From positions 1 to 24,034 of IMG/VR virus record IMGVR_UViG_3300021964_005532: a stretch of 24,034 bases of DNA, one strand, 5' to 3'. The notes below the pieces were generated by a model. It made no database searches and was not told the origin of the DNA. It saw only the letters and a program-made list of their open reading frames with translations. The translations under genes were made by a program, and so were the position numbers. Shown piece after piece: positions 4,345 through 17,689 of the stretch (positions within the stretch are counted from its first letter, which is position 1; each line of letters opens with the position of its first letter). This DNA comes from a virus.

Positions 4345-4716
4345 TTAATAATTATAACGAATTTCGCGAATGGTGCCGTTTTGTAGTTCGTATTTCGCTC
4401 TTATCCACACAAATTTGCCCGTAAACGTGTTGGAAAAGTCATAATCAACGCTGTCGTCATTATTAGGTTGGTTGTATAGAGTGCTATCGCCTGCGAATGT
4501 AGTTACATCTACCCAGTCCGTGTCGTCTGTGCTTGGATACTGTTCCAGTGTTCCTTGTATAGTGATATCACCTAGAAAAGCATTCACTATGGTGTATACT
4601 GTATGAACACCATCACCATTCTTATAATACCCGCCGCCTATTTTCTTTTCAGTGTATTGTGCTGAAGTAGTGACCGTATTAAGGTTTTCTAATAGTGTTT
4701 TGCTTTCGTTGATCAT
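4345..4716 (-). CDS. Putative virion-associated protein (123 aa), unknown function
   Basis: A 123-aa protein rich in Thr, Asp, Tyr and Asn with alternating hydrophobic residues, suggesting an all-beta fold: GDITIQGTLEQYPSTDDTDW, then a C-terminal FTGKFVWIRAKYELQNGTIR. Such composition is common in phage tail or head-decoration proteins. The opening MINESKTLLENL contains LLE-N, a possible prohead protease site. The ATG lies four bases after the TAAATAC core of a late promoter, with no Shine-Dalgarno sequence. No family recognised with confidence. A structural role is inference from composition and promoter type. Confidence 0.65.
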   Translation of the reverse strand: MINESKTLLENLNTVTTSAQYTEKKIGGGYYKNGDGVHTVYTIVNAFLGDITIQGTLEQYPSTDDTDWVDVTTFAGDSTLYNQPNNDDSVDYDFSNTFTGKFVWIRAKYELQNGTIREIRYNY

Positions 4717-4729
4717 ACTGTATTTATCG
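4717..4729 (-). promoter_or_regulatory. T4-type late promoter abutting the start codon at 4716
   Basis: The minus strand reads CGATAAATACAGT directly followed by ATG (4716-4714). By the T4 rule (start about six bases after TATAAATA) transcription would begin within one base of the start codon, leaving no room for a ribosome binding site. Confidence 0.6.
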
Positions 4730-5413
4730 TATTAATTCGTATTTGAAAACTTGGCCCAATAGGCTAGGACTGCGTAGTTTTATCATGAGCAGAGTTTGTT
4801 CATTGTCAATATAGATGTATCTACGATCCCAATTTTGATCAGTATTTATTAACCACTTTTTAATTGAACTTGTAAATGTAATCTTGGGTTTTTGATTTGA
4901 TAACCAGTTAACCAATAGTTGTTTATCGTCATGCGCTATCTTGTGGGGATGTAGATATGCGCGATACTCGTAATTATCATGCGGTAATTTTTTTACGAAT
5001 ATCTTTTTTTCTTCTTCAAGCATTTGGGTTTCCATGCCCTTAGGGGGTTGGAATCTAAGCCTTACAAATTCACTAAACTTATTACACACACCTTGGTAAA
5101 ATGCTTTATCGTTTGTATATAAATCGATATGATCGCCTTCTAGTCTTTTAAAGTATGTTCCTTTTTCAACACCGTTAAGATAAGGGATAAGTTTCATCCA
5201 GACATGCTTGTTTGATATCATTTGATTCATAACTCTATCTTTCCATGTAAGATCCGGAGAGGATACTAACTCTTGTGTCTGACAAATTTCTATAAACTTA
5301 TGCAGATCATAATAGCGAAGTCCGCTTATTCCAGGTATCTCTAAAGAAACTTTGTAGATATACTTGTTATAAAACTTTTTCTTAGTTTTCTTGGCTGTCG
5401 GTAACTTCTTCAT
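4724..5413 (-). CDS. Unknown protein (229 aa), last gene of the dnaJ-def-clpA operon
   Basis: A 229-aa protein with a very basic N-terminus (KKLPTAKKTKKKFYNKY), many aromatic residues and no membrane segment. A WDRRYIYIDNEQTLLMIKLR stretch near the C-terminus looks like two beta strands. I do not recognise the family. The gene begins 32 bp inside the end of clpA, with a GAGG sequence 12 bases before the ATG, and the preceding in-frame codon is a stop, so no nearer start is possible. Its position suggests co-translation with ClpA and possibly a related role such as an adaptor or nucleic-acid-binding factor, but this is only context. Basic charge would suit nucleic-acid contact. Confidence 0.7.
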   Translation of the reverse strand: MKKLPTAKKTKKKFYNKYIYKVSLEIPGISGLRYYDLHKFIEICQTQELVSSPDLTWKDRVMNQMISNKHVWMKLIPYLNGVEKGTYFKRLEGDHIDLYTNDKAFYQGVCNKFSEFVRLRFQPPKGMETQMLEEEKKIFVKKLPHDNYEYRAYLHPHKIAHDDKQLLVNWLSNQKPKITFTSSIKKWLINTDQNWDRRYIYIDNEQTLLMIKLRSPSLLGQVFKYELIR

Positions 5414-7733
5414 TTAGCAATTTTTCCTCTCTGGCTTCTTGCTTTGCCTGCCTCTTTAACTCTTTTGGAGTTGGCTTCGGTGCAGGAGTTACTTCAAAGT
5501 CTGGTTCGTCATCCTTGATAAAAATGTTTACAATCCCGCCATCTACAAGATCACCAAATAATACTCTCTTACTTAACGGAGTTTTAATTTTATTATCGAT
5601 GATTCTGCCTAATGGTCTTGCACCCATCTTCTTGCTGTAGCCTTTGGACGCTAACCAATCAACAGTATTTTCATCAGCCTTAATTACAATATTCTTGTCA
5701 TTAAGTTGTGAATTTAATTCGTCAATAAACTTAGTTACAATCGACTTAACAACATGCTTAGACAGTTTACTAAATTTAATAATACCATCTAATCTATTTC
5801 TAAACTCTGGAGGAAAGAAGTTTTTAACTGCTTTATCGTCTTCATCAGTTTTTTCTAAATCATCAAATCCAATACTATTGCGTTCGTTATCAGCAGCCCC
5901 TAGATTTGATGTCATAATAAGAATACTGTTACGACCATCTGCTTGTTTACCATTAGATCCTGTAACAAATCCATTATCCATAAATTGTAATAAAATATTT
6001 GAAACATCCGGATGTGCTTTTTCTATTTCATCTAATAATAAAATTGCGTTCGGATTTTCCTGTAATTTAGTAATAAGTTGACCAGCATTTTCATCAAAAC
6101 CTACATACCCTGGAGGAGCACCAATCAATCTTGCCACAGAATGTTTCTCTTGATATTCACTCATATCAAATCTAATTAGATGCATACCCATTTTATCTGC
6201 AAGTTGTTTTGCAGTTTCAGTTTTACCACACCCTGTTGGGCCTAGGAACAGAAAACTACCAATAGGCTTATCTGGAGATTTTAATCCTGCTTGTGCAACA
6301 AATATCTTATCCAACAATGTATCAACAGCATCATCTTGACCAAATACTGCGGACTTCATCGAATCTTCTAACCCTGCTAGATTCTTGCTTTCCTTTTGTG
6401 CAACGGTCTCTAATGGCATGCCGATCATTTTTGATAATTCGTATGTTACCTGTTCCACATCAACTATTTGTCGAATACCGTCTTCAACAGGATCGTCATT
6501 TAATTTATAACGTGCAGATGCACAGTCAATAACATCAATGGCTTTATCTGGTAGTTTCTTATCGGCCATGTATTTGACTGACAATTTAACAGACTGTTCA
6601 ATGGCTTCGTTAGTAATAGCAACGTTATGGAATTTTTCGTAGTATTTTTTAAGACCCTTAATAATTTTAACAGTTAGTTCTGGAGTTGGCTCATCCAGTG
6701 TAACACGTTGGAATCGTCGCATCAACGCACGATCCTTTTCAAAGTATTTGCGATATTCTTCCCAGGTAGTTGAAGCAATAACTTTCATACCGCCTTTGGC
6801 TAGAGCTGGTTTTAACATGTTTGCTAAATCATTAGAACTTTGTGATCCTCCACCTGCACCTGCACCGCTCATCATGTGTGCTTCGTCTATGAATAATATA
6901 ATCTTGCCCTTGCGTTCTAACGATACAAGAACTGCTTTTATTCTTTCTTCAAAATCACCTCTATATTTAGAACCAGCAACTAGAGCTCCAATATCTAAAC
7001 TATAAACAGAATGATCCTGAATAAACTTAGGAACTTTCTTTTCAAAAATCTTACGAGCAAGACCTTCAGCAATAGCAGTTTTACCCACTCCTGGATCGCC
7101 TACCATTAATACATTTGATTTTTGTCGTCTTGCTAATACAAGTGTAATGTCTTCTAATTCTGTTTCTCTGCCAATAACAGGATCTAATGATTTTTGTTTT
7201 GCCTTGAGCGAAAGATTTGTGCAGAACTGATCAATAATTTTATCTACTTGGTCGTTAGATAACACAGTGTCTCCACCATTTTCAAAGAAATCATCTTCTG
7301 TTACTATGTGTTTTTGGAAGTGTTGAACAAACTTATCTTTTAGTATTCCACCTTTTGTAAGAAAATAAAATGCAAATGAATTCTTTTCGTTGAGTATGCT
7401 GATAATAACATCAGCAGTTTCCATTTGATTTCTTCCGCTAAACAAAACCTGTGTAAAGCATCTATTTAATACACGCTCAACTGAATTTGTTTTCTTTGGT
7501 AGAACCTTTTCCTCGATTATAATATCATTTAAATTGTTTTTTAGATAGTGTTCTAGATTAGATTTAATATAGTCAACATCGGCACCGTAGGCTTTTAATC
7601 CTTCGTAGGCTTCCTTATCAGACATGATCGCAAAAAGCAAATGCTCTAATGTAATTAATCTATGCTTAAAACTTTTAGATATTTCTACGGAACTATCAAA
7701 AATATTTTGTAACTGCTGACTTGGTTCAATCAT
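5382..7733 (-). CDS. clpA: ClpA-type AAA+ unfoldase
   Basis: At 783 aa this is close to full ClpA length. Order of parts: Clp N-domain (about 1-145), first AAA+ module with Walker A GDPGVGKTA (212-220) and Walker B ILFIDEAH (279-286), second module with Walker A GPTGCGKTE (498-506), Walker B LLLDEIEKAH, and sensor-2 GARPLGR (704-710). There is no ClpB-style long middle coiled coil. The loop before PPEFRNRLD contains SIGF (620-623), matching the IGL/IGF tripeptide by which ClpA and ClpX dock on ClpP. Thus it should unfold proteins in the cytoplasm and feed them to a protease; no clpP is in the window, so host ClpP is the probable partner. The last 35 residues are a charged extension. Overlaps the upstream deformylase by 8 bp. 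Function of the enzyme is firm; targets are unknown. Confidence 0.95.
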   Translation of the reverse strand: MIEPSQQLQNIFDSSVEISKSFKHRLITLEHLLFAIMSDKEAYEGLKAYGADVDYIKSNLEHYLKNNLNDIIIEEKVLPKKTNSVERVLNRCFTQVLFSGRNQMETADVIISILNEKNSFAFYFLTKGGILKDKFVQHFQKHIVTEDDFFENGGDTVLSNDQVDKIIDQFCTNLSLKAKQKSLDPVIGRETELEDITLVLARRQKSNVLMVGDPGVGKTAIAEGLARKIFEKKVPKFIQDHSVYSLDIGALVAGSKYRGDFEERIKAVLVSLERKGKIILFIDEAHMMSGAGAGGGSQSSNDLANMLKPALAKGGMKVIASTTWEEYRKYFEKDRALMRRFQRVTLDEPTPELTVKIIKGLKKYYEKFHNVAITNEAIEQSVKLSVKYMADKKLPDKAIDVIDCASARYKLNDDPVEDGIRQIVDVEQVTYELSKMIGMPLETVAQKESKNLAGLEDSMKSAVFGQDDAVDTLLDKIFVAQAGLKSPDKPIGSFLFLGPTGCGKTETAKQLADKMGMHLIRFDMSEYQEKHSVARLIGAPPGYVGFDENAGQLITKLQENPNAILLLDEIEKAHPDVSNILLQFMDNGFVTGSNGKQADGRNSILIMTSNLGAADNERNSIGFDDLEKTDEDDKAVKNFFPPEFRNRLDGIIKFSKLSKHVVKSIVTKFIDELNSQLNDKNIVIKADENTVDWLASKGYSKKMGARPLGRIIDNKIKTPLSKRVLFGDLVDGGIVNIFIKDDEPDFEVTPAPKPTPKELKRQAKQEAREEKLLNEEVTDSQEN

Positions 7734-8259
7734 TTCTTATTTTTTTCCTCAATTTATTTAATTTCTTCATTGCTAATTGTAACTTCAACTTACCTACTCT
7801 GTCAACAAAACAAACACCATTTAGGTGATCAAATTCGTGTTGAAAGCATTTGGCTAAGTAACCCTGTATTTTGCCTTCCTTAGTTTCACCTTTTGAGTTT
7901 TGCCATTGCCCTACAATCCATGCAGGTCTTGATACCTTTAATAACAGCCCTGGAAAACTTAAACAGCCTTCAGTATCTAATACTCTTTCCTTACTCGCTT
8001 CTAGTATTGTAGGATTAAAAAGTGCAAACGGTTTGGGAAAATTAGGCAAGTCTGTGCTGCCCATAACAAACACTCTTTTCTTCAGATCAATTTGATTGGC
8101 TGCTAACCCAATACCTTTATTATTAATCATAAAGTTACACATATCCCACTCTAATTTTTCAGGATCGTATTTTTCCTTGTTAAAATCCCAAACATCGCTT
8201 GCTTGGTTGAGTGCTTCGTGTAACCCTAACTTATAATCTATGTCTAATTTATATTCCAT
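7726..8259 (-). CDS. def: Peptide deformylase
   Basis: The 177-aa protein has all three deformylase motifs: GIGLAANQ (49-56, motif I GxGxAAxQ), EGCLS (97-101, motif II with the metal-binding Cys99) and QHEFDH (140-145, motif III with His141, Glu142 and His145). It removes the formyl group from the N-terminal methionine of new proteins, using a divalent metal. Phage deformylases are often short; this one keeps a C-terminal basic helix ([15 protein letters not shown]), which many phage versions lack. It starts 11 bp inside the end of dnaJ and ends 8 bp inside clpA, so it is translated within the operon. Marine phages are known to carry deformylase genes, thought to help maturation of proteins made during infection. 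Confidence 0.95.
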
Positions 8260-9097
8260 CTTTTAGGTTCTTTATTTGTTGTCTTTGTTGTTCATTGTAT
8301 CTTGGTATTTCTGCTTTTATTTTTATTTGCAGATTCCCCCTAACTTTATTTCTCATGTTAGGAAGCCCTTCTCCCTTGCAACTTAATACAGTATCTGGTT
8401 GTGTGCCAGCAGGAATATTAATTTCTATATTCTTTCCGTCCAAAGTTTTTACTAGAGTTTTTGATCCTAACATTAAATCCCATGCACTAACTTTTGTTTC
8501 ACATAGTATATTATCACCAAACCTCTGGAATGATGGATGATTGCGAACGCGAATCTGTATTAATAAATCACCAGCCGGTAAGTTTGGATTATTTTGCTCT
8601 CCCATTCCTCGATATCTTATTGTTTGTCCGTGTTCAACCCCCGAAGGAACATCTACGGTTACTACCTTTGTTCTGCCTGTTGGTAAAGCAATTTCCATTC
8701 CTATAGTTTTACCATTCAAAACATCTTCGAGAGTTACATCAACTGCAACTTGAATCGGTCTGTTACTCCTTTGTCTGTTTCCAAACGGCGATCCTCCCCC
8801 AAACATTTGTTCAAAAATATCATCCATGCCTCCACTAAACGGGGAACCGTTAAAATTAAATTCAAAATTTTGTGAGTTATATTGGCGTTGTCTCGGATCA
8901 GCAGTTCCAAACTGATCATACATCTGTTTCTTTTGGGGATCGTTAAGTGTTTGGTAGGCTTCGTTTATTTCTTTAAATTTGGAATCGTCACCGCCTGTGC
9001 GATCAGGATGGTGCTGCATACTCATCTTTTTATATGCTTTCTTTATTTCATCCTGGCTGGCGTTTTTATTAACACCTAATGTAGAATAGTAATCCAT
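8249..9097 (-). CDS. dnaJ: DnaJ/CbpA-like Hsp40 co-chaperone
   Basis: The 282-aa protein starts with a J domain (YYSTLGV through YDQFG, residues 3-64) with the HPD motif at 30-32 that stimulates DnaK ATPase. A Gly/Phe/Asn-rich stretch follows (about 75-115), then two C-terminal substrate-binding domains (from about 118). The four CxxCxGxG zinc motifs of classical DnaJ are absent, so this is a class B protein like CbpA. No dnaK is in the window, so it should work with host DnaK in the cytoplasm. The J domain begins at residue 2, which fixes the start although the AAGGAGG ribosome binding site is 13 bases away. First gene of the dnaJ-def-clpA-unknown operon; promoter at 9131-9140. Confidence 0.94.
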
Positions 9098-9103
9098 AAT
9101 AAT

Positions 9104-9129
9104 AAAGGATCCTCCTTAAGCAATCCTTT
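9104..9129 (-). promoter_or_regulatory. Inverted repeat with the dnaJ Shine-Dalgarno in its loop
   Basis: On the minus strand AAAGGAT (9129-9123) and ATCCTTT (9110-9104) can pair around a 12-base loop that contains AAGGAGG, the dnaJ ribosome binding site. If transcription starts near 9126, as the upstream late promoter predicts, only four base pairs of the stem would be present. The repeat is seen; a regulatory role is speculative. Confidence 0.35.
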
Positions 9130-9512: not shown

Positions 9513-9528
9513 TACAGTATTTATTTTG
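9513..9528 (-). promoter_or_regulatory. T4-type late promoter for the holin-like gene
   Basis: The minus strand reads CAAAATAAATACTGTA, followed by TATTAAGGAG and then the ATG at 9494. The TAA stop of the o-spanin gene (9523-9521) lies inside the TAAATA core, so the promoter overlaps the end of the upstream gene. Predicted start is near 9512. Confidence 0.6.
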
Positions 9529-9907
9529 CTTTATCCGTTTTGTCTTCCGGCTTAACAGCATTTTCGTAATATACAATAATTTGTTTCTGTTGTTCTATGT
9601 AACGTCTTAGTTCAGAAAAGTTAAGTGCTAAATTTTCATAGTCCTTAACACTGATAGCAATATAAGCATCAGCACCGTTTTTAGATTCAAACTCTTTTAC
9701 AAATTCGTCATAGTTTTCTTTTGAAACTACATAGATTTTAACATCATTCAATTGAACTGCTTTTGGATGAGCAACAATAGGAACTGTAGTTTTTACGGTA
9801 TTAGTTACTACTTGAATCTGTGGTTCCGGTCTCAGTAGACTGCACCCCGCTGTCAGCGTTAGGATCAGTAATAGACTCAAGATCGTCCCAAAGTTTATTG
9901 GTCGCAT
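9521..9907 (-). CDS. Outer-membrane spanin lipoprotein (Rz1-like)
   Basis: From the ATG at 9907 the 128-aa protein has a lipoprotein signal: MRPINF, a hydrophobic stretch, and lipobox LTAGC with Cys22 as the acylated residue. A TTG at 9925 is in frame, but the ATG at 9907 has an AGAGGA site seven bases upstream. The mature part is 106 residues and ends in a helix-like QQKQIIVYYENAVK. The gene starts in another frame inside the i-spanin gene and overlaps it by 107 bp, which is the classic Rz/Rz1 arrangement. Together the two proteins would link inner and outer membranes and fuse them at the end of lysis, implying a Gram-negative host. The mature part is longer than lambda Rz1 and not proline-rich. 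Confidence 0.75.
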   Translation of the reverse strand: MRPINFGTILSLLLILTLTAGCSLLRPEPQIQVVTNTVKTTVPIVAHPKAVQLNDVKIYVVSKENYDEFVKEFESKNGADAYIAISVKDYENLALNFSELRRYIEQQKQIIVYYENAVKPEDKTDKAK

Positions 9908-10232
9908 TTTGCATCCTCTTTTCAATTAAACCTGGCTTTTTATTTGCCAGGTGTGTTAAATTATGTTTCTGTAAAGTAGCACGAAGTTCATCTCCATACT
10001 GCTCTGCCTTTTGTAAATCAGAACTTAATTGGTTGTTTAGTTCTCCAAGTCTAACGGTTTCTGCTCTTTCAAGTTTAAGGCTTGCTTCACTAGTTTGAAC
10101 AGCAATCTCCATCTTGGCTACATTTGCTCTTGCCGTTTCTAAATCACTCTGTAATTTTTTAACGTATAAGATACCACCTCCTGCCGCAGCAAGTAGGACA
10201 AGTATCATAGCAATTCTAATTGAACTAAACAT
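9801..10232 (-). CDS. Inner-membrane spanin (Rz-like)
   Basis: A 143-aa protein from the ATG at 10232: an N-terminal membrane anchor (about residues 6-24, AMILVLLAAAGGGILYV) without a cleavage site, then a long coiled-coil region with heptad-like Leu/Ala spacing (LQSDLETARANVAKMEIAVQ to about residue 90), and a Ser/Thr/Asp-rich end. This is the topology of i-spanins, with the body in the periplasm. The downstream o-spanin gene overlaps its 3' end out of frame. A longer frame from 10271 would include the promoter and the end of the halogenase gene, so it was rejected. No Shine-Dalgarno is visible before the ATG, which directly follows a perfect late promoter. Identification rests on topology and the overlapping partner. 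Confidence 0.75.
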   Translation of the reverse strand: MFSSIRIAMILVLLAAAGGGILYVKKLQSDLETARANVAKMEIAVQTSEASLKLERAETVRLGELNNQLSSDLQKAEQYGDELRATLQKHNLTHLANKKPGLIEKRMQNATNKLWDDLESITDPNADSGVQSTETGTTDSSSN

Positions 10233-10246
10233 ATATGTATTTATAC
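10233..10246 (-). promoter_or_regulatory. Perfect T4-type late promoter abutting the i-spanin start
   Basis: The minus strand reads GTATAAATACATAT directly followed by ATG (10232). It contains the full TATAAATA consensus of T4 late promoters. The predicted transcription start, six bases after the last A, coincides with the A of the start codon. The halogenase stop codon (10243-10241) lies within the promoter. Confidence 0.7.
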
Positions 10247-11455
10247 AAAATAATCTGCAAGAGAATACCAACTATATTCCGAAAACAATCGACCCTCAAC
10301 CCATTTTCCATAGTCAGATCTTTGAGATTTTTCAACAGCATGGTCTTTAGTGTTTAGATTTTGCTCAAGATTATTGTAATATTTCCAATATTCTGTATCA
10401 TCGCGATCACTTAAGGTGTAATGACAAAGCACGAAATTTTTTGTTTCGTCGAAAATTCTGACTGCATTTCTGTTTAGAACTTTAGCACTACGCTCCCCTA
10501 TCACATATTTATAGGCCTGTCTAACCATAAAAAATGAAAGAAAAACACTAGTTCCTTCGAGAGGTTCTATAAATCCGCCACTGAGTCCTGCAACAGCAAC
10601 GTTGCCCTTAATAGATTCAGTGCATACTTCAGGATTAAATTTAAAGTGTCTTACTTCATCTTTGTTTACGGAAGGATACTCCTTCAAGAATTCTTCAGTT
10701 GCTTGATCTTTGTTAATGAACTTATCACTATAGACATACCCGCACCCATGTCGGTTTTGTAAAGGTATGTGCCATATCCAGCCTGCAGATCTTGCTTTGG
10801 TCGTAGTCACTCTTTCTGAGGTATCTAACCCAAACACGCTCGACGCGACAGCACTGTTATTAATTAGTTCGGGATATGATTTATATTTCATTCCTATTTT
10901 TTCTGCAAGCAATTTCCTAAACCCACTACAATCAATAAAAAAATCTGCTGTGATCATCCTACCACTCTTTGTGTGTAGAGATAGAACTTTATCATCTTGT
11001 GTTTTTATATCTTCTATATGATCTATGATATGTTCGCAATTGTTTTTAAGTGCTGATTCTTTACAAATTGTCTCACCAAATTTGTATGCATCAATGTGAT
11101 AACCGTATTCCAACAAATCAAAAGGAGGAAGTGTTCCGTCTTCGATGTGTTTCATTTGAGTATGGTGTTTGCGTCTGTCGTAAAGGAACCAGTGCCACCA
11201 AGGTTGTTTATTTTTTCTCCAGTCTTCGTGTTTAATACCGAGTTTGTATGTTGCATTGGCTAATGGCATCCACTCATCTTCTGATAGACCAAGTTCGCCT
11301 GCTAGCCAATTTATTGCAGGAACCGTGCTTTCACCAACTCCTACTATACCAGTATCACTACTTTCGATAAGGGTAACTTTGTATTTTTTTGCAGCAAAGT
11401 ATCCAGCCGCTATCCAACCAGCCGTTCCTCCGCCTACTACGCAGATTCTATCCAT
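10241..11455 (-). CDS. Flavin-dependent tryptophan halogenase-like protein
   Basis: A 404-aa protein of the tryptophan halogenase family. It opens with the FAD-binding VVGGGTAGWIAA (6-17), followed by GVGESTVPAIN (39-49). The family motif GWxWxIP is present as AGWIWHIPLQ, the feature separating halogenases from monooxygenases. A Lys (K71, in ATYKLGIKHEDW) lies where PrnA has its catalytic Lys79, and EPLEGTS lies where PrnA has its catalytic Glu346. The enzyme would use reduced FAD, oxygen and halide to halogenate an aromatic substrate. It is shorter than PrnA-type enzymes (about 530 aa), so the substrate may not be free tryptophan. No flavin reductase is in the window. The ATG is fixed by the FAD motif starting at residue 5 and follows a late promoter without a Shine-Dalgarno. 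Such genes are known in marine T4-like phages. Confidence 0.88.
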   Translation of the reverse strand: MDRICVVGGGTAGWIAAGYFAAKKYKVTLIESSDTGIVGVGESTVPAINWLAGELGLSEDEWMPLANATYKLGIKHEDWRKNKQPWWHWFLYDRRKHHTQMKHIEDGTLPPFDLLEYGYHIDAYKFGETICKESALKNNCEHIIDHIEDIKTQDDKVLSLHTKSGRMITADFFIDCSGFRKLLAEKIGMKYKSYPELINNSAVASSVFGLDTSERVTTTKARSAGWIWHIPLQNRHGCGYVYSDKFINKDQATEEFLKEYPSVNKDEVRHFKFNPEVCTESIKGNVAVAGLSGGFIEPLEGTSVFLSFFMVRQAYKYVIGERSAKVLNRNAVRIFDETKNFVLCHYTLSDRDDTEYWKYYNNLEQNLNTKDHAVEKSQRSDYGKWVEGRLFSEYSWYSLADYFV

Positions 11456-11469
11456 GAAAATATTTATAG
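11456..11469 (-). promoter_or_regulatory. T4-type late promoter abutting the halogenase start
   Basis: The minus strand reads CTATAAATATTTTC directly followed by ATG (11455). It has the full TATAAATA consensus; the predicted start falls on the A of the ATG. No Shine-Dalgarno can be placed between them. Confidence 0.65.
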
Positions 11470-11499: not shown

Positions 11500-11655
11500 C
11501 TAAACGTGCAAATGCCAAAACTCTTCCTTTGTCATAGTTTTGTATCTGTGCTGTTCGCAGACAACTATTTCCACAGGCTTGTTATCACCATCGGTAAATG
11601 TTTCTATTAACTTACCTTCGTGTTCTCTACCGCAATTTTGGCAAATCTTGGTCAT
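11500..11655 (-). CDS. Zinc-finger microprotein (51 aa)
   Basis: A short frame of 51 codons reading MTKICQNCGREHEG..., with a CxxC pair (Cys5, Cys8) and a CxxH pair (Cys33, His36) spaced by 24 residues, the pattern of a small treble-clef or zinc-ribbon metal site. The start overlaps the endolysin stop as TAATG, so it is probably translated by coupling. Codon choice resembles the neighbours. It may be a small regulator or nucleic-acid/protein-binding factor; nothing more can be said. The TAATG junction, zinc-ligand spacing and lack of other coding in this gap make it likely to be real. Confidence 0.65.
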   Translation of the reverse strand: MTKICQNCGREHEGKLIETFTDGDNKPVEIVVCEQHRYKTMTKEEFWHLHV

Positions 11656-12167
11656 TAGATCATTGATATAGCAAGTTCAGTAGTTTCGTCAACTCTGCGA
11701 GTCCATCCTCTACCAAAAGTTTCAAAGGTGCTTAATGATTCATAATACCCTTGGCGTGCTTCTTGGAATGATTTGATTGCACCCTCAACACCGTTTGCAT
11801 CAACATATGCATCTAGTGCCTTGAGAGTGTTAGGACCAATGCCACCGTCAGCAACTGTGCCAATCATTGTTTGCAAATATTTTGCTGAACGCCCTGTTCC
11901 TGCATTAACACCAAAGTCGAATACGCACAAATCTAAACCTGCAGGAATATCATCGCACTTCATTCTGTCCCAGTAATTCTTTCTGTAGATGGGTGCAACG
12001 TCCTCAACTAAAAGATCTTTCATATCCTTAGTTCCACCCCATTCTTCGTAAACTCTTTTTGTAACACCTAGATTAGTTTCACCACCTGGATCTTTTGGAT
12101 GGTTTACATATCCACCTTCGTGATGTAGAATAGTTTCTAAACACTTATCGTAGTTTTCGCTAGCCAT
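11655..12167 (-). CDS. Endolysin, glycoside hydrolase family 108 (N-acetylmuramidase)
   Basis: The 170-aa protein begins with LETILHHEGGYVNHPKDPGG, the signature of GH108 lysozymes, where Glu17 in EGGY is the catalytic acid. It continues with GVTKRVYEEW, NYWDRMKCDDIPAGLDLCVF and DFGVNAGTGRSAKYLQ, all typical for the family, and includes a C-terminal peptidoglycan-binding-like segment with GGIGPNTLKALDA. It should cut the glycan strands of the host cell wall at the end of infection. There is no signal peptide, so export would need a holin; the 9494 gene is the candidate. A GAGG site lies nine bases before the ATG. It sits after two unknown genes in the unit driven from 13436-13449. Confidence 0.92.
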   Translation of the reverse strand: MASENYDKCLETILHHEGGYVNHPKDPGGETNLGVTKRVYEEWGGTKDMKDLLVEDVAPIYRKNYWDRMKCDDIPAGLDLCVFDFGVNAGTGRSAKYLQTMIGTVADGGIGPNTLKALDAYVDANGVEGAIKSFQEARQGYYESLSTFETFGRGWTRRVDETTELAISMI

Positions 12168-14309: not shown

Positions 14310-14331
14310 AGTGGGGGCAGAGGCCCCCACT
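14310..14331. terminator. Bidirectional hairpin terminator between phoH and the ferredoxin gene
   Basis: GTGGGGGC and GCCCCCAC pair perfectly around AGAG (extended by one A-T pair), making a nine-pair, GC-rich stem in an AT-rich genome. It stands between two convergent genes and touches the ferredoxin stop codon. T-tracts are weak on both sides, so termination may be partial or the hairpin may protect 3' ends. Confidence 0.7.
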
Positions 14332-14656
14332 ACTTTGCCTTAAATAGTTTAGTCTTATCTTCGGAACTTTTTGAATACTGTTCGTATTCAGGCATTGGAT
14401 CTTTCTCGTCAGTGATATTGGGCCATCCACCGGTGGTAGAAAAGTATTCATTGTGTTTCCACCATTTATCATTAACATCGTCTGTCTGATAAATTGCTTC
14501 CTCTGGGCATTCCGGAATGCACACTCCACAGTCAATACATTCGTCAGGATTGATCACTAACATATTAGGTCCTTCGTAGAAACAATCCACAGGACATACT
14601 GAAACACAAGTGGTGTGTTTACACATTATACATTTATCGTCTACTAGATGTGCCAT
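14330..14656 (-). CDS. fdxA: 7Fe (3Fe-4S/4Fe-4S) ferredoxin, FdxA-like
   Basis: A 108-aa ferredoxin. Cysteines are at 9, 12, 17, 21, 25, 40, 43, 46 and 50, matching, with an offset of one for the initial Met, the nine Cys of Azotobacter ferredoxin I. In that protein 8, 16 and 49 bind the 3Fe cluster and 20, 39, 42 and 45 the 4Fe cluster. The block [20 protein letters not shown] is typical for bacterial FdxA. It would carry electrons in the cytoplasm. The C-terminal half ([18 protein letters not shown]) also matches FdxA-type proteins. It is the last gene of the operon started at 17059, two bases after the small membrane protein gene. Phage ferredoxins are usually of the plant-like 2Fe type; the 7Fe kind is less familiar to me. 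Electron partner is unknown. Confidence 0.93.
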
Positions 14657-17114: not shown

Positions 17115-17303
17115 ATGATTAAGAATATTTCACTAAACCTAGAAGTAGGACAAGAAATTCTTGTCGGACAAAATAATGAAAAAGCTCGTATCACAAAGAT
17201 CGAGTTTCATCCAAAATCAGGGGAGGTATCCATTAATACCACTAAGGGTCCTAGAAAGGCGCTAACGTTTAGATTGTGTCCTGAAACACAATACTCTTAT
17301 TAG
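17115..17303 (+). CDS. Small plus-strand protein (62 aa), unknown function
   Basis: The ATG at 17115 has a good AAGGAG site (17103-17108) six bases upstream. The 62-aa product begins MIKNISLNLEVGQEILVG and continues with alternating polar and hydrophobic residues (KARITKIEFHPKSGEVSINT), suggesting a small beta barrel, perhaps SH3- or OB-like. It has a net positive charge. It converges on the co-chaperonin gene; the two stop codons overlap by four bases. Upstream, TTGTCA (17058-17063) overlaps the -35 box of the opposite promoter, with a weak TATAAC at 17084-17089. Function is unknown, perhaps an early host-takeover protein, but nothing supports that beyond size and place. Confidence 0.65.
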   Translation: MIKNISLNLEVGQEILVGQNNEKARITKIEFHPKSGEVSINTTKGPRKALTFRLCPETQYSY

Positions 17304-17689
17304 TTGTTAATAAACATACCAGGATCGAAGGTTGCTGTTGCACCATCGTTGTATTCCTGTGCCATATAGTTAACATCTGGCACTTCGGTTTGCCAGGCGA
17401 GTATTGATTCTACTTCTACTTTTTGTAGTTCGATCTTGTCGTTGTTTTCGTCTTCAATTTCTATCTTACGAGTCCAACGTCCATGCTCAATAAGGATCCA
17501 ATCACCTACATTGTAAGGATCATTATTCTCTGGACCCTTGGCATATACTTTTGCCCAACGTGGCTTAACGCCATGTGCCTTAGCATCGTCGGATGGAATG
17601 TATAAGCCACTGGCTGTTTTCATTTCGCCGAAATGCATATCGCATACTAATACATCGGCATGGATTGGTCTTACCTTACCTTTAATCAT
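17300..17689 (-). CDS. GroES-like co-chaperonin (T4 gp31-like)
   Basis: A 129-aa protein with GroES features: VRPIHADVLVCD near the start, a mobile-loop-like region MKTASGLYIPSDDAKAHG (residues 23-40) whose SGLYIP occupies the place of the GroEL-binding GGIVL of GroES, then WAKVYAKGP and YNVGDWILIEHG, the core barrel strands. It would cap host GroEL to fold phage proteins, as gp31 does for the T4 capsid protein. The last 25 residues form an extra tail not seen in GroES. An AAAGGTG site precedes the ATG. It is the last gene of the unit beginning at 19229. Similarity to both GroES and gp31 is modest, so the call is probable. Confidence 0.68.
   Translation of the reverse strand: MIKGKVRPIHADVLVCDMHFGEMKTASGLYIPSDDAKAHGVKPRWAKVYAKGPENNDPYNVGDWILIEHGRWTRKIEIEDENNDKIELQKVEVESILAWQTEVPDVNYMAQEYNDGATATFDPGMFINN

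Follow-up and report, generated by a model that had tools for sequence, protein, structure and literature searches.

Sequence analysis of a conserved dnaJ-def-clpA operon in large T4-like phages

Genes and features of the locus

The DNA analysed here, called the window, is a piece of a virus genome 24,034 bp long. Its features of interest, with coordinates on the window, are:

4345-4716, minus strand: dn1, fifth gene of the operon, encoding a 123-aa beta-sandwich protein, probably a virion protein (HMM homology)
4724-5413, minus strand: gene of a 229-aa protein, two tandem ferredoxin-like domains predicted (AlphaFold2 model)
5382-7733, minus strand: clpA, Hsp100/ClpA-type AAA+ unfoldase (Pfam/PHROG, alignment with E. 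coli ClpA, tree)
5865-5873, minus strand: IGF tripeptide, clpA codons 621-623, predicted ClpP-docking loop (motif alignment)
7726-8259, minus strand: def, peptide deformylase, its three motifs complete (Pfam Pep_deformylase, E=2.5e-38)
8249-9097, minus strand: dnaJ, class B J-domain protein (Pfam DnaJ + DnaJ_C)
9104-9129, minus strand: leader hairpin with the Shine-Dalgarno sequence AAGGAGG (9111-9117) in its loop
9130-9138, minus strand: late-type promoter motif TTAAATACT, 33-41 nt ahead of the dnaJ start codon
9165-9494: gene that follows the spanins directly and precedes dnaJ, encoding a 109-aa protein with a hydrophobic stretch of membrane type (phrog_10198, no function); candidate holin
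9521-10271: two Rz-like spanins of the lysis module
11655-12167: GH108 endolysin of the lysis module, upstream of the operon
17300-17689: GroES/T4 gp31-like co-chaperonin (Cpn10, E=2.4e-5)

The block of this marine phage joins genes that trim, refold, and unfold or degrade proteins. The original prediction described four overlapping genes at this locus. Its coordinates and overlaps proved exact: 11 bp are shared by dnaJ and def, 8 bp by def and clpA and 32 bp by clpA and the 229-aa gene. dn1 starts 7 bp past the end of the 229-aa gene. Upstream of the operon, besides the lysis module, two virion proteins adjoin an opposite-strand PhoH gene. The GroES-like gene, proposed as a fourth quality-control gene, is present; as a member of the operon it was ruled out by distance, since it lies 8 kb away at a separate locus.

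Two further genes of the region were recorded. A tryptophan halogenase gene (10241-11455) is located within the lysis module, with the endolysin on one side and the spanins on the other, and TATAAATA is found at 11461-11468, immediately ahead of its start. At 14330-14656 a ferredoxin-type 4Fe-4S protein is encoded (identified by its cysteine pattern), with clamp loader and PhoH on either side.

Conservation of gene order and of the encoded proteins

For comparison, 92 distinct viral contigs were collected by searches with ClpA and with the 229-aa protein. Presence of clpA and of the 229-aa gene in this sample is therefore by construction, whereas presence of dnaJ, def and the fifth gene is not. 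All 69 contigs that reach far enough upstream have dnaJ ahead of clpA and in the same orientation. def sits between the two in 61 of these, and in the remaining 8 dnaJ lies directly ahead of clpA. The 229-aa gene was found directly 3' of clpA in 91 of the 92 contigs. Gene junctions were likewise kept: the dnaJ/def overlap is exactly 11 nt in 50/71, clpA and the 229-aa gene overlap in 86/86, and the gap between the 229-aa gene and the virion gene measures 3-10 nt in most contigs. In loci newly fetched by a profile search with the 229-aa protein, clpA was again upstream; the one exception is cut off by a contig end.

Among cultured phages, dnaJ-def-clpA is present in Sinorhizobium phage Phosso and dnaJ-clpA in Atu_ph07 and PA5oct, in the latter flanked by virion proteins detected by mass spectrometry. 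RaK2, 121Q and Vibrio phage 2.275 carry clpA alone. A search for conserved dnaJ-def-clpA order among marine and other phages, suggested as a check on the original prediction, was thus answered positively. The order is not unique to the window, and because it is shared by 92 contigs and cultured jumbo phages it is not a product of chance. The block formed by dnaJ, def, clpA and the 229-aa gene is a real, old operon. The phage group carrying it is large and T4-like/RaK2-like.

The window ClpA has the Pfam architecture Clp_N/AAA/AAA_lid_9/AAA_2/ClpB_D2-small and matches E. coli ClpA over its whole length (residues 11-742). This alignment is continuous, and alignments with ClpB and ClpC chains are split in two; a ClpB/ClpC-type middle domain is absent. 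Both Walker A/B pairs and both pore loops are present. Conservation across 86 ClpA sequences covers the Walker, pore-loop, arginine-finger and sensor motifs, with the pore loops kept as SKYRGD (D1) and PPGYVGFD (D2). A SIGF loop had been noted at the ClpP-docking position next to two intact Walker sites, and this description holds: in the alignment, the IGF of the window falls on the IGL that E. coli ClpA has there. The docking tripeptide reads (I/V)GF in 83/86 sequences and IGV or IGM in the other 3. In the aquatic clade its G and F are invariant (79/79) while the neighbouring loop residues vary. At the level of sequence, this conservation is strong evidence for selection for ClpP docking.

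In the ClpA tree, all 17 phage sequences were split from 20 bacterial ClpAs by one branch with 100/100 support, which marks clpA as an old viral gene and not a recent capture. Branches of the cultured phages are long, and the order and placement among them are unsure. The nearest bacterial ClpAs are mostly alphaproteobacterial (42-48% identity). The likeness to E. coli ClpA of the ClpAP protease (PDB 1ksf/1r6b, 6w1z) extends to the N-domain, the two AAA+ modules, the pore loops and the IGL-type loop. The window protein differs from bacterial ClpA in being phage-encoded, with 44% identity to Acinetobacter ClpA in the alignment, and in contrast to the E. coli system its gene does not adjoin clpS. 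A top match named 'Acinetobacter phage MD-2021a' was rejected as a phage sequence because it stands among bacterial housekeeping genes, in a clpS-clpA pair. Its locus (CAKLQF020000008.1 / CAKLQH020000043.1) looks like a bacterial chromosome, with clpS-clpA among metabolic genes.

The window DnaJ comprises a J domain with HPD, a G/F-rich linker and a DnaJ C-terminal domain, without a zinc finger. HPD was found in 80/80 aligned DnaJ sequences and the zinc-finger motif CxxCxGxG in 0/80; the nearest solved structure is Thermus DnaJ2 (6psi, E=1e-45). By these features the protein classifies as a class B J-domain protein. The deformylase motifs GxGLAAxQ, EGCLS and HExxH are present in the window def and kept in relatives (75 sequences aligned). 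No deformylase turned up in 15 records that were searched because def is missing at their locus; 5 of these are cultured phages, whose records were searched whole. def is missing from several relatives and is therefore not essential to the module; it is an accessory whose slot is fixed. In principle, deformylase could be linked to N-end-controlled degradation.

The 229-aa protein had no Pfam or PHROG match, and tblastn against cultured phages gave no match. Its AlphaFold2 model (mean pLDDT 95) shows a tandem pair of beta-alpha-beta type domains, both ferredoxin-like. A Pfam scan of 75 relatives gave scattered weak matches on which the members did not agree. Son-of-sevenless, the best profile match to PDB sequences, was rejected (E 0.06 only). 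Foldseek against PDB gave nothing below E 0.06, and a second structure comparison (VIA) gave Z <=5.1 with generic ferredoxin-like domains only, e.g. EF-2; no ClpS-like match was among the matches listed. The proteins matched in BFVD are uncharacterised and come from phages, one of them from Atu_ph07. The strict linkage to clpA fits a ClpA-related role, but also simple hitch-hiking in a tight operon. The fifth gene, dn1, is homologous by HMM to PA5oct EST35_0299, which is annotated as a structural protein by mass spectrometry. The dn1 model (pLDDT 86) has the phage protein XepA as its best structural match (Z 9.6), and its product is probably a virion protein.

The control element ahead of dnaJ

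Within the window, occurrence of TTAAATACT alone is no better than chance. Counts of TATAAATA (3 matches vs 2.7 expected, so not evidence alone) and of a generic sigma70 scan (26 vs 29 expected) are likewise at background. TATAAATA was found ahead of dnaJ in 0 of 80 upstream regions; the window has TTAAATACT at this place, kept as (T/G)TAAATA(A/C)T in its nearest relatives. Across the phage family, ATAAATA occurs in 141/528 upstream regions vs 0 antisense, and the motif class (N)TAAATA(C/T) is strand-specific and strongly enriched ahead of genes. The form (G/A/T)ATAAATA(C/T)A, taken from intergenic regions of loci L001-L098, is the probable late promoter consensus of the phage group, and the family-wide (N)ATAAATA(C/T) motif is consistent with T4-type late promoters. 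This enrichment makes the original reading of TTAAATACT as a late promoter plausible.

A sigma70-type site was detected ahead of dnaJ in 30/46 sequence clusters, compared with 16/337 for other genes (Fisher p 1.3e-21); unclustered, the counts are 46/78 dnaJ upstream regions vs 5/234 control stretches. In 31/31 upstream regions having both, the promoter hexamers overlap a terminator-like hairpin. The commonest spacing in relatives places the -10 six bases ahead of the dnaJ ATG, from which a leaderless or nearly leaderless message is predicted. L009, L012, L014, L015, L017, L020 and others combine this spacing with a -35 in the terminator loop.

The window and its nearest relatives have neither the promoter hexamers nor the T-run any more, but retain the hairpin with the Shine-Dalgarno sequence in its loop. 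The 7-bp stem is paired in 8/8 sequences, and two of the pairs have changed at both positions (MFE -10.4, z -2.3). The leader hairpin is possibly what is left of the composite element, terminator plus promoter, that the relatives have; the sigma70-type promoter was lost in the window's subclade. As cited in PMC4503421 and PMC5348500, the PeSL of T4-like phages (Comeau et al. 2014) joins an early, sigma70-type promoter to a stem-loop terminator. The relatives resemble it, and 31 of them qualify as PeSLs, but their -35 is placed in the hairpin loop or their -10 in the hairpin stem. The window, with a hairpin that has neither a T-run nor good promoter hexamers, lacks the promoter half and does not qualify. 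Late-only control of the operon, as originally proposed, therefore fits the window's subclade but not the majority of relatives with their sigma70-type promoter (30/46 clusters), and 'late in infection' covers half of the picture at most.

Partner proteins and interpretation

As the window is only a 24,034-bp fragment, lack of ClpP and DnaK inside it says little. For six cultured relatives the entire record was searched; five are deposited as complete genomes and the Vibrio phage as a partial one. A ClpP-family protein is encoded elsewhere in 6/6 and ClpS in 6/6; DnaK was found in 0/6. In metagenomic records, which are mostly fragments, ClpP-family genes were found in 10/53 (two of them divergent), ClpS in 7/24 and DnaK in 2/30. 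Phage ClpPs inspected by eye have the Ser/His/Asp positions in the expected motifs. No ClpP was detected in contigs of the window's closest subclade (29-80 kb; ClpA 78-83% identical) or in several records of 188-270 kb at 66-72% ClpA identity, and the latter would favour host ClpP in those phages. Two large relatives (G017, loci L107/L212; G011, loci L108/L207) carry dnaK and clpS on one strand, no more than about 1 kb apart, and so have a second protein-quality-control cluster.

These counts bear differently on the two partnerships that had been proposed. Coupling of DnaJ to host DnaK is favoured by the DnaK counts, and DnaJ most likely works with the host protein. That ClpA must plug into host ClpP could not be upheld: a phage clpP elsewhere in the genome had itself been named as evidence against this claim, and one was found in all six cultured relatives and in 10 of the 53 metagenomic records, while contigs of the window's closest subclade extend over 29-80 kb only. 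From this distribution it is more likely that a phage ClpP is available to ClpA in much of the group.

The favoured interpretation is a conserved five-gene operon around a phage-owned ClpA and a J-protein, acting by the mechanism proposed below (probability roughly 0.6). Operon structure, gene order, the intact ClpA elements, the HPD of DnaJ, the metal-site motifs of deformylase and a control element of its own can be read from the DNA itself. ClpA hexamers would dock on ClpP via their (I/V)GF loops, as suggested by the loop itself, the partner being phage ClpP where encoded and otherwise host ClpP. ClpAP, with ClpS where present, would unfold and degrade chosen host proteins or misassembled phage proteins. 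DnaJ would deliver unfolded proteins of the phage, chiefly those of the virion, to host DnaK, and deformylase may be an accessory enzyme by which N-termini mature faster when new phage proteins are made in a burst. In most relatives the operon would be fired by the sigma70-type promoter shielded by the terminator hairpin and read by host polymerase, so that expression is probably also early; a part of them would use a late-type motif in addition. The window's subclade would rely on the late-type motif only, together with the hairpin carrying the ribosome-binding site. An extended version, in which ClpA, ClpP and ClpS with the J-protein and deformylase form a complete, self-owned system of regulated proteolysis, expressed from a dedicated host-polymerase promoter and again late, with the 229-aa protein serving ClpA as a new, dedicated substrate adaptor, is considered rather improbable.

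Three other explanations were weighed against this operon model. If ClpA and DnaJ plugged only into host ClpP and DnaK, host proteolysis would be redirected late in infection. The window without either partner, the late-type motif ahead of dnaJ, the closest-subclade contigs and the 188-270 kb records without ClpP, and the cultured relatives without DnaK all agree with such a hijack. It is nevertheless judged unlikely, given ClpP and ClpS in every cultured relative, ClpP in several metagenomic ones, the sigma70-type promoter in most relatives and the fragmentary nature of the window. Alternatively, ClpA could act with DnaJ mainly as an unfoldase or disaggregase without proteolysis that assembles or clears tail and head subassemblies. 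This would account for the place of the operon among virion and lysis genes. Iyer et al. (PMC7824862) propose that ClpA/ClpX and DnaJ of jumbo phages act in assembly, virion genes flank the operon both in the window and in PA5oct, and the fifth gene is related to a structural protein detected by mass spectrometry. A ClpP-free unfoldase would, however, have no need of a docking tripeptide that stays invariant amid varying flanks, all six cultured relatives have ClpP together with ClpS, and a promoter of sigma70 type points to expression that does not depend on the late phase; a purely assembly-related machine is accordingly regarded with doubt.

Counter-defence, with ClpA(P) degrading host defence proteins and DnaJ interfering with DnaJ-dependent phage sensing, is very unlikely. 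No target or adaptor is known, the locus points to no specific defence system, and the cassette is core-like in the clade instead of patchy. Such a role would suit an early-type promoter, and the moraphage paper discusses DnaJ and chaperones in these terms, citing DnaJ-dependent bNACHT25 sensing (PMC12619734).

Among known systems, Phosso (PV764938) and Atu_ph07 (MF403008; PMC6102473) share the gene order of the window and have a fifth-gene homologue downstream, but have no 229-aa gene after clpA and encode ClpP and ClpS elsewhere; in Atu_ph07 def is absent from the entire record. PA5oct (Wroclawvirus) resembles the window in the succession of opposite-strand PhoH, related virion genes, dnaJ, clpA and fifth gene, but is without def, the 229-aa gene and the intervening lysis genes, and its J protein is divergent. 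Moraphages (PMC12619734) too are large phages of aquatic habitats; ClpA belongs to their core genes, and they have DnaJ/DnaK. That paper reports gene presence, not an operon, and deformylase is unmentioned. Deformylases of cyanophages and huge phages (Frank et al. 2013, as cited in PMC7162821) belong to the same enzyme family and have intact motifs; there they are read as translation genes, whereas the window def is locked between dnaJ and clpA.

Phage ClpA, DnaJ, ClpP, ClpS and deformylase are each already known (PMC7824862, PMC6102473, PMC12619734, PMC7162821), and ClpA and DnaJ of Atu_ph07 are consecutively numbered (gp292, gp293; PMC6102473). In the literature searched on jumbo phages and pelagiphages, no report joining deformylase, DnaJ and ClpA was found. 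Nor did the literature searched yield a description of the dnaJ-def-clpA operon or its control element, though other papers may have one. The components are thus known and their pairing is partly known; the conserved operon and the composite control element appear undescribed.

Papers on jumbo phages name ClpA, ClpP, ClpS, DnaJ and deformylase each on its own, as scattered genes. One old, packed operon of DnaJ, ClpA and often Def with a control element of its own, together with the ClpP and ClpS of its relatives, turns this annotation list into a testable hypothesis of a phage-owned AAA+ protease. As the operon or its core is present in the cultured phages Phosso, Atu_ph07 and PA5oct, direct laboratory testing is possible.
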